Shown here: positions 340-1,181 of the stretch, piece after piece
Numbering within the stretch: position 1 is the stretch's first letter
Layout of the letters: every line of letters starts with the position of its first letter
IMG/VR virus record: IMGVR_UViG_3300028394_000268
Span: 1-27,424 of that record
Length of the DNA: 27,424 nt
Direction: 5' to 3' (one strand)
From: a virus
Program-made: the position numbers and the translations under genes
The notes under the pieces: model-generated
Seen by the model: the letters and a program-made list of their open reading frames with translations, nothing else
Database searches by the model: none
What the model was told of the DNA's origin: nothing

Positions 340-362
340 AAAAAAGGGGCACGAATACCCCT
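340..362 (-). terminator. intrinsic terminator of tmRNA, overlapping its pseudoknot
   Basis: On the minus strand AGGGGTA-TTCG-TGCCCCT forms a 7-bp stem with a UUCG tetraloop, followed by six T. It ends the permuted tmRNA transcript. The same bases can instead form an H-type pseudoknot: ACGAAT (370-375) with ATTCGT (351-356), and GGGG (358-361) with CCCC (346-349). tmRNAs normally contain such knots after the tag stop codon. Confidence 0.75.
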
Positions 363-560
363 CAATTTAATTCGTCAGAGTTCTATACCAAAGAAGGTAC
401 AGAAGTCCTCGAAAATGCAACAATTTTGTTTGCGTTTGTTTGTTTGTTCCGTCAACAGATAAAACCTTTATACCCCGTCGAAACCTTGGCATCCCCGTGC
501 AATGGAGATGAGCGGAGTTGAACCGCTGTCCGAAGCATCAGAATTCTTATCCTCTTGAAC
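345..560 (-). ncRNA. ssrA: circularly permuted (two-piece) tmRNA, cyanobacterial type
   Basis: Read along the minus strand, the acceptor half comes first. The T-arm AGCGG-TTCAACT-CCGCT is followed by acceptor strand CATCTCC and A (503). Six nt later comes the coding half, GGGGATG (496-490), then CCAAGGTTTCGACGGGG, the conserved tmRNA 5' signature. GGGGATG pairs with CATCTCC over 7 bp. TTTTATC of the coding half can pair with GATAAGA of the acceptor half (helix P2). Next come the tag frame (433-383), an 8-bp helix TCTGTACC/GGTATAGA holding the stop codon, and an H-type pseudoknot. tmRNA with SmpB rescues stalled ribosomes and adds a tag. Cyanobacterial hosts have two-piece tmRNA, so capture from the host is likely. 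CCA is not encoded. The 5' and 3' ends given are approximate. Confidence 0.93.
383..433 (-). other. tmRNA tag reading frame, ANKIVAFSRTSVPSLV-stop
   Basis: From resume codon GCA (433-431) the frame runs 16 codons to TAG (385-383). The predicted tag is ANKIVAFSRTSVPSLV. From memory, the Prochlorococcus tag is ANKIVSFSRQTAPVAA; the first nine residues differ at one position only (S to A). The C-terminus differs where it matters: host tags end in Ala-Ala, which ClpXP recognises, and this one ends Ser-Leu-Val. Confidence 0.88.
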
Positions 561-565
561 ATCAA

Positions 566-597
566 TATTTATAGCACGATTTATGGGGAGGTGTCAA
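566..597 (-). promoter_or_regulatory. dual early/late-type promoter of the tmRNA
   Basis: TTGACA (592-597), an 18-nt spacer and TATAAA (568-573) form a sigma70-like promoter. The -10 is also part of an exact T4 late-promoter motif TATAAATA (566-573). The tmRNA could therefore be made both early and late. The first 13 nt, TTGACACCTCCCC, are identical to the promoter at 21006-21034. Confidence 0.7.
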
Positions 598-600
598 ATA

Positions 601-673
601 TCGGTGTAGCGGGATTCGAACTCGCACTGGAGCGATTTTAAGTCGCTTATCTCTGCCGTTGGATTACACACCG
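601..673 (-). tRNA. tRNA-Leu(UAA), compact form without long variable arm
   Basis: The acceptor stem CGGTGTG/TACACCG has discriminator A. The anticodon stem AGCGA/TCGCT encloses CTTAAAA (anticodon UAA). The T-arm is GCGAG-TTCGAAT-CCCGC with one A/C mismatch. Bacterial tRNA-Leu normally has a long variable arm (about 85 nt in total); this gene is 73 nt with a variable region of about 5 nt. The D-stem has only three Watson-Crick pairs. Leu identity rests on the anticodon and A73. It sits 3 nt after tRNA-Arg, so the two are probably co-transcribed. Confidence 0.85.
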
Positions 674-676
674 GAG

Positions 677-750
677 CGTCCCGAGCTGGATTCGAACCAG
701 CGACCAATTCATTAGAAGTGAATTGCTCTAATCCACTGAGCTATCGGGAC
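677..750 (-). tRNA. tRNA-Arg(UCU)
   Basis: Canonical 74-nt cloverleaf: acceptor stem GTCCCGA/TCGGGAC, discriminator G, D-loop with the AGTGGATTAGAGC pattern, anticodon loop CTTCTAA (UCU), T-arm GCTGG-TTCGAAT-CCAGC. CCA is not encoded. It reads AGA, a codon favoured in AT-rich phage genes. It is the first gene of the RNA island, 14 nt after the stop of the upstream coding sequence. Confidence 0.95.
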
Positions 751-764
751 ATAAACCTAATATA

Positions 765-1181
765 TCACTTTTTAGGACACGAGTCAACCCAAGGAGCACA
801 GATTCTTAGTTCACCTCCGAGTGCCTTACAGTCTTTAGTATAGCACACGGATTTGTCTATTGGATATTCGACATATCTTTGTTCGTATTTCTTATCATAC
901 TCGGAAATAATCCGATTATACTTTGGATTTACGGCATCGATTGCCCTGTTCAAATCTCCTTTGATTCTGCGATCTAAAAGAATTGGGTCAGTAATAATCC
1001 AATCATTCAAAGGTTTTCCTGGTATTTTTCTTTGAATTTGATCGACAATATCGTAAATTTGTTCTTCAGGAATATGAATACACTGCGATATTCCCGTTAC
1101 AACAGAAGTCAATATGACTCCTATAATCGCATATCTAAAAATACTTGATTTCTTTTTACCAAATTGGAAATCAAATTTCAT
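765..1181 (-). CDS. membrane-anchored hypothetical protein
   Basis: A 138-aa protein I do not recognise. After a short basic N-terminus with KKK comes one hydrophobic segment at about residues 15-33 (FRYAIIGVILTSVVTGIS), which could be a signal peptide or a membrane anchor. The remaining roughly 105 residues would be outside the cytoplasm and contain four cysteines, three of them near the C-terminus (VCYTKDC, RICAPWVDSC), suggesting disulfides. A TTG start 6 nt earlier (1187), abutting the previous stop, is also possible and has AAGG 8 nt upstream. The neighbouring lysozyme gene invites a role in lysis or the envelope, but this is only context. Confidence 0.7.
   Translation of the reverse strand: MKFDFQFGKKKSSIFRYAIIGVILTSVVTGISQCIHIPEEQIYDIVDQIQRKIPGKPLNDWIITDPILLDRRIKGDLNRAIDAVNPKYNRIISEYDKKYEQRYVEYPIDKSVCYTKDCKALGGELRICAPWVDSCPKK

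Follow-up and report, generated by a model that had tools for sequence, protein, structure and literature searches.

A tmRNA gene of the permuted cyanobacterial type in a T4-like cyanophage, with a tag end that may weaken coupled proteolysis

The DNA analysed here, a 27.4-kb virus record taken over its whole length of 27,424 nucleotides (hereafter the window), carries on its minus strand (574-346) a circularly permuted tmRNA gene of the cyanobacterial type, whose tag, ANKIVAFSRTSVPSLV, ends in SLV, without the Ala-Ala end found in the hosts. Terminal Ala-Ala is what ClpX reads, and it is the signal for ClpXP. Our main reading, to which we give a probability of roughly 0.55, is that this phage tmRNA, chargeable with alanine, would recycle ribosomes together with the SmpB of the host, while its tag would weaken turnover by ClpXP. 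The reading starts from what is directly observed, namely the gene, its structure, the tag sequence, the selection acting on the tag and the contrast with the hosts. Most sampled viral lineages with a cyanobacterial-type tmRNA possess non-AA ends, and these are of several kinds. The pattern suggests that the virus keeps rescue and drops disposal.

A covariance-model search of the minus strand, suggested in an earlier, sequence-only reading of this DNA, was run with Rfam and gave matches above the gathering thresholds for both RF01851 (cyano_tmRNA; 574-346, 95.9 bits, E 6.2e-25, gathering 70) and RF04321 (tmRNA_permuted; 552-389, 82.8 bits, E 1e-14, gathering 47). ARAGORN, which is independent of Rfam, predicts a permuted tmRNA at 292-592 on the same strand with the tag ANKIVAFSRTSVPSLV*, and the permuted gene claimed by that reading is thus borne out. 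Its placement of the acceptor half before the coding half, with A73 at 503, G1 at 496 and 6 nt between them, proved exact (Table 1). A spacer of 6 nt is also the commonest length among hosts (72 of the 118 host genes, among the matches listed).

The acceptor helix is formed by CATCTCC (510-504) and GGGGATG (496-490), with seven pairs including G3-U70. Together with the T-arm, the GGTTTCGAC signature, P2 and the helix holding the stop codon, this 7-bp stem had been drawn in the sequence-only reading, and all these elements were recovered by Rfam, folding and pairing. The unconstrained fold of 346-574 returns acceptor helix, T-stem and P2 (z -2.4; 2 of 200 shuffles as stable), and the stop codon lies inside a 9-bp hairpin (z -4.6; 0 of 200 shuffles as stable), in which the related locus L251 shows a compensated change. 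The H-type pseudoknot of the earlier drawing held only in part: it can be drawn in the window (ACGAAT 375-370 with ATTCGT 356-351, plus GGGG/CCCC), where its score was reached by 1 of 100 mononucleotide shuffles, but among the nine related rows tested it is present in four (window, L013, L021 and L022) and absent from L251, L275, L207, L239 and L290. A clade-wide pseudoknot was therefore rejected and, because of this distribution and of the overlap with a terminator-like hairpin at the end of the tmRNA gene, we regard the element as partly supported.

Table 1. Positions in the window of the tmRNA gene, its parts and its upstream neighbours
Feature	Position	Strand	Evidence or remark
tmRNA gene, permuted cyanobacterial type (precursor)	346..574	-	RF01851 95.9 bits; ARAGORN 292-592
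Acceptor piece, A73 at 503	503..574	-	Rfam, pairing, fold; 5' end tentative (592 by ARAGORN)
Acceptor piece: 5' strand of P2	552-547 and 538-532	-	
Acceptor piece: T-stem	527-523 with 515-511	-	
Acceptor piece: acceptor 3' strand	510-504	-	
Intervening spacer TTGCAC, 6 nt	497..502	-	CCA not encoded
Coding piece from G1 (496)	346..496	-	3' end inferred
Coding piece: acceptor 5' strand	496-490	-	
Coding piece: GGTTTCGAC signature	485-477	-	
Coding piece: 3' strand of P2	476-470 and 462-457	-	tag and 3' hairpins come after
Tag reading frame	383..433	-	resume codon GCA 433-431, tag ANKIVAFSRTSVPSLV 433-386, stop TAG 385-383
Hairpin around tag end and stop codon	371..413	-	inner 9 bp 404-396 with 389-381
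Possible H-type pseudoknot and overlapping terminator-like hairpin, then T run	344..375	-	part of the clade only
tRNA-Leu (taa), upstream neighbour of the tmRNA	601..673	-	ARAGORN, Rfam
tRNA-Arg (tct), upstream neighbour of the tmRNA	676..750	-	ARAGORN, Rfam
Promoter-like site before the run of tRNA-Arg, tRNA-Leu and tmRNA	759..787	-	

Across the 71 distinct viral sequences among the matches listed, standard pairs are found in 95.3% of the cells of 25 named pairs; when the partner was slid by 1-3 columns as a control, pairing fell to 47-57%, a comparison that favours the unslid version to some degree because the pairing model was drawn on the window row. Changes on both sides occur, in at least one of these sequences, for 15 of the 25 pairs. 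No cell of the acceptor stem or T-stem is left unpaired in any of the 71, and G3-U70, the alanine identity pair, is present in the window and in 71/71 (again among the matches listed). This pairing analysis covers all 71 distinct sequences; a separate parse of the acceptor stem covered 82 of 104 viral stems.

The viral set, assembled from contig scans with ARAGORN, homologue records and the window, comprises at least 104 loci of cyanobacterial type and at least 71 distinct sequences, and homologues were found in S-CAM1, S-CAM3, S-CRM01, AG-345-P14, S-SSM7, S-SSM6a, Sf-FS3 and S-CBWM1. BLAST of the tmRNA of one further locus, L272, against named phages matched a single record. The host set comes from a scan of genome contigs with ARAGORN and comprises at least 120 picocyanobacterial loci, 118 of them readable, a count that leaves out the truncated L131 and L135 and three surplus ARAGORN predictions that lack the NNIV-F-R motif.

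All 118 readable host loci among the matches listed have tags ending in Ala-Ala. For viral tags of the cyanobacterial type the AA end is found in 17 of 71 distinct sequences, corresponding to 9 of 44 distinct tags and 29 of 104 loci (among the matches listed), and the other ends are LV, AV, TV, SV, TA, PA or AL, some of which keep the last alanine (-ATA, -VTA, -VPA, -SCA). Concerning the named phages, S-CAM1 and S-CAM3 keep AA (...STVAA), S-SSM7 and S-SSM6a end in ...ELVTA, Sf-FS3 in ...ELATA, S-CRM01 in ...SLVAAL, S-CBWM1 in ...VSCA and AG-345-P14 in ...QLATA. Five further cases (S-SSM7, S-SSM6a, Sf-FS3, S-CBWM1 and the locus L377) are all non-AA.

The tags vary also elsewhere: many phage tags have extra residues before a host-like core (ANTSDSA-ANNIV..., AKSSDTA-ANNIV...) and in some of them the core is followed by a long insert (ILTREFARTDELVTA), these forms being found in L008-L010, L014, L145-L187 and S-SSM7 (L307).

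Three possible artifacts were considered and rejected. Pattern bias does not account for the non-AA excess, as with tag-neutral patterns only, 51 of 74 viral loci are non-AA and the AA end is found in 15 of 52 distinct viral sequences (both among the matches listed); L007, a piece of the window, was dropped from this count, and L205 and L206 repeat S-CAM3 and S-CRM01. Nor are AA tags hidden in the 34 viral loci that ARAGORN left uncalled, for which a looser reading gave L249 only (QTV) and no AA. Finally, host DNA among the viral contigs is contradicted by the flanks, where homologues of S-CRM01 proteins were found at 62 of 102 viral loci versus 0 of 118 host loci (among the matches listed), and by the position of the hosts in a separate clade; for the remaining 40 of the 102 viral loci the viral status rests on the IMG/VR classing and on the tree. 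The latter was built without the last tag codons, from 45 of the 75 distinct host rows and 70 viral rows, and places the 45 host rows in one clade (100/100) with the 70 viral rows outside, the bootstrap being not settled. On this tree the distribution of AA and non-AA tag ends requires at least nine changes.

Viral permuted tmRNAs of other types end in AA in 37 of 42 loci and in non-AA in 5 of 42, and GGGGCTG-type tmRNAs on viral contigs in 69 and 10 of 79, respectively (both among the matches listed). The GGGGCTG-type scan gave at least 116 loci, 37 of them without an ARAGORN tag, and L377, one of its ten non-AA cases, is itself of the cyanobacterial type. Host DNA flanking prophages may account for some of the AA-ending tmRNAs counted as viral in these other types. 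Counted as distinct tags, AA is found in 9/44 of the cyanobacterial-type viral tags versus 24/28 of the other viral tags (Fisher, p = 5e-8) and versus 12/12 of the host tags (p = 5e-7), p values that serve as a guide only since related tags are not independent. Among one-piece tmRNAs, we observed that the tag predicted for Bacillus phage G (L301), AKLNITNNELQVA, ends in -QVA and not in -AA. Such non-AA ends outside the cyanobacterial type, rare as they are, and that of phage G count against our main reading.

From the pattern of substitutions, the tag frame is under purifying selection as a peptide. Estimated roughly, from equal-length pairs chosen greedily as nearest neighbours, pN/pS of the viral tags is 0.25 in frame versus 1.43 and 1.48 in the other two frames (24 nearest pairs), and in the last three codons of non-AA tags it is 0.22 (9 synonymous, 4 non-synonymous, 18 pairs; Fisher p = 0.01). 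The final valine is encoded by GTT, GTA, GTC or GTG, and the preceding leucine by TTG, CTA, TTA or CTT.

In the mechanism that we propose, the tmRNA is probably transcribed with the neighbouring tRNAs and its precursor would be cut into two pieces by host tRNA-processing enzymes; it would then receive alanine from the host AlaRS through G3-U70 and, bound to the host's SmpB, would release ribosomes that have stalled on broken mRNA in the infected cell. With -SLV in place of -Ala-Ala at the end of the tag, the tagged polypeptides should be poor or slow substrates of host ClpXP, rescue being kept and the coupled proteolysis weakened. As for the benefit, mRNA breakdown could leave many ribosomes stalled, and the phage may gain if proteases or its truncated proteins are spared. 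The sequence-only reading had concluded that the phage manages ribosome rescue itself. This stands for the full permuted tmRNA in a T4-like phage, but SmpB was found in none of 19 tmRNA-bearing records, mostly fragments: there is no PF01668 match in the window contig, itself a fragment, and none in 18 other such viral records, five of which exceed 170 kb. Since no SmpB was found in these records, that of the host would be needed.

Molecules with a comparable behavior have been engineered. According to the available text of PMC10107115, the E. coli tmRNA-DD and tmRNA-His rescue ribosomes and induce proteolysis poorly, and the phage tmRNA would work alike; unlike it, however, they are one-piece molecules with charged or histidine tag ends. 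In Synechocystis three tags have been compared, with a strength that falls from LVA through AAV to ASV (review PMC3446811, available part). This order supports a weak turnover of V-ending tags, which in Synechocystis are weaker and not inert, and, LVA being strong, it also implies that degradation may persist for some non-AA tags that retain a single alanine at the end. A broader proposal, to which we would give somewhat less than even odds, is that cyanophages have uncoupled trans-translation from proteolysis on several lines, with a tmRNA under selection for ribosome rescue and for the addition of a tag that is stable or has a new destination, and that theirs is a natural counterpart of tmRNA-DD.

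It could also be hypothesized, with less probability, that this is an ordinary tmRNA, whose products host proteases degrade at about the host rate and in which changes of the tag end are tolerated and have no special function. The AA end kept by S-CAM1, S-CAM3 and the rest of the 17 (of 71 distinct viral sequences, among the matches listed) counts against our main reading and fits such an ordinary tmRNA, as do the single alanine kept in some non-AA ends and the strength of LVA in Synechocystis (PMC3446811, available part). We nevertheless consider it unlikely, because hosts, with 118/118 AA ends among the matches listed, have no such tolerance and because the non-AA ends are conserved as peptides (pN/pS 0.22).

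PDZ domains read hydrophobic C-termini of the kind seen here. Ends such as -SLV, -ALV and -VAV might then direct the products to another protease or partner, for example of the PDZ-domain Deg/Ctp kind, and V or LV ends do recur and are under selection. However, the whole range of ends is diverse (LV, AV, TV, SV, TA, PA, AL) and a ClpP homologue was found in 0 of 10 viral records, and we judge such retargeting to be quite improbable.

A constraint by RNA structure, in which the stop-codon hairpin and not the peptide determines the last codons, is very improbable. In the window clade these codons do lie in a strong hairpin, with the compensated change of L251, but hosts pair the last six tag nucleotides more than non-AA phages do (mean 4.88 of 6, n=65, versus 3.39, n=46) and yet keep AA, and the selection is frame-specific; we therefore rejected RNA structure as an explanation of this end. 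The stop codon is paired at 2.85 of 3 nucleotides in hosts, 1.39 in non-AA phages and 0.65 in AA phages. We give least credit to a decoy, an RNA mainly titrating SmpB or blocking host trans-translation, for which a precedent exists in the nearly tag-less tmRNA-like sequence of mycobacteriophage DS6A and in the inhibition of tmRNA by a similar molecule (PMC4131195 and PMC11915505, available parts), since a decoy would not need a complete tag under frame-specific selection.

What is new here is the altered tag end, which the sequence-only reading had passed over; the gene itself is of a known kind, since two-piece tmRNAs of marine phages, the cyanobacterial lineage included, are already in print (PMC9004378). 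The sequence-only reading had left undecided whether the permuted cyanobacterial type was known in phages. The available part of PMC9004378 answers this, reporting 53 two-piece forms among 133 distinct phage tmRNAs (Melnitz, Mosig, AG-345-P14 and others), naming Prochlorococcus phage AG-345-P14 as a tmRNA carrier and grouping host and phage tmRNAs of cyanobacterial lineage together in a tree. As possible roles it offers maintenance of the translation machinery or the tagging of host proteins for degradation, the second of which fits poorly with the tag ends seen here; the ends themselves are not discussed in that part of the article. Among the titles and abstract beginnings listed for the open-licence PMC literature, none concerns phage tmRNA tags with altered degrons, and the available parts of PMC3037559, PMC2784084, PMC9382816, PMC2518516, PMC5587285, PMC7194413, PMC8138137, PMC9964418 and PMC6409571 contain nothing on cyanophage tmRNA.

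Compared with known genes, the tmRNA gene of the window resembles the ssrA of Prochlorococcus and Synechococcus (RF01851) in gene order, acceptor helix with G3-U70, GGTTTCGAC, P2 and short spacer, and the tag type A-N-[NK]-I-V-x-F-x-R is common to host and phage. The differences from the hosts are the position outside their clade, a region ahead of the tag that is shorter in the window clade, and the SLV end in place of AA. The permuted form is shared with the marine-phage two-piece tmRNAs, of which that of Melnitz is, unlike ours, of alphaproteobacterial type (PMC9004378, available part), whereas the tmRNAs of mycobacteriophages and of Bacillus phage G, phage-borne as well, are one-piece (PMC4131195, available part). 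Huge phages carry a tmRNA and also their own SmpB, as far as the accessible text of PMC7162821 goes, while no SmpB was found with the cyanophage tmRNA in the 19 records above. In 25 bacterial tmRNAs the tag consists of Ala-Ala alone (PMC11915505, in the part available), and these bacteria keep just the end that the phages have dropped.

If our main reading is true, the release of the ribosome and the condemnation of the product, the two jobs of tmRNA, can be separated in nature, and what a lytic phage chiefly wants is the release. Short reporter tags in cultured cyanobacteria would then allow a direct test of why phages carry tmRNA, and isolated phages with non-AA tags exist (S-SSM7, S-SSM6a, Sf-FS3, S-CRM01 and S-CBWM1).

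The window is a fragment of a T4-like cyanomyovirus. Ribonucleotide reductase, primase, DnaB-like helicase, DNA polymerase, clamp loader and CobS-like proteins are among the products of ten large ORFs scanned, and the 384 phage records matching by megablast are named Synechococcus (312), Cyanophage (50), Prochlorococcus (14) and Marine (8). Of 40 records searched for T4 gp23, 5 have it, namely those longer than 170 kb, all the others being fragments below 100 kb. In transcription order, ARAGORN finds Arg, Leu, tmRNA, Thr, Gly and Asn in the tRNA array. A promoter-like site precedes this run (Table 1), and such sites are no commoner in the window than in shuffles (4 found versus 4.3 expected). 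For tRNA-Thr (tgt), ARAGORN calls one at 266-337 on the minus strand that does not attain the Rfam tRNA threshold; L013 and L021 have a regular tRNA start at the corresponding place, and the window copy may be degenerate.

The annotation of cyanophages would also be corrected. Of nine cyanophage records inspected at the tmRNA region, one bears no annotation whatever, and a tmRNA feature is missing there in the other eight. Genes for a 'hypothetical protein' lie on top of the tmRNA at 2985-3125 in L003 (S-CAM3), 1000-1125 in L005 (an S-CAM1 isolate), 1033-1251 in L307 (S-SSM7) and 690-851 in L308 (S-SSM6a), and they look like misannotations. In S-CAM1 (L002, 5592-5688) a wcaG RNA element (RF01761, 83.5 bits) is located about 2.3 kb downstream of the tmRNA. 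Stenotrophomonas phage BUCTxx99 (L006, 975-1177) also has a permuted tmRNA that is not annotated (RF04321, 100.1 bits), with the AA-ending tag ANDDVYVVALAA.
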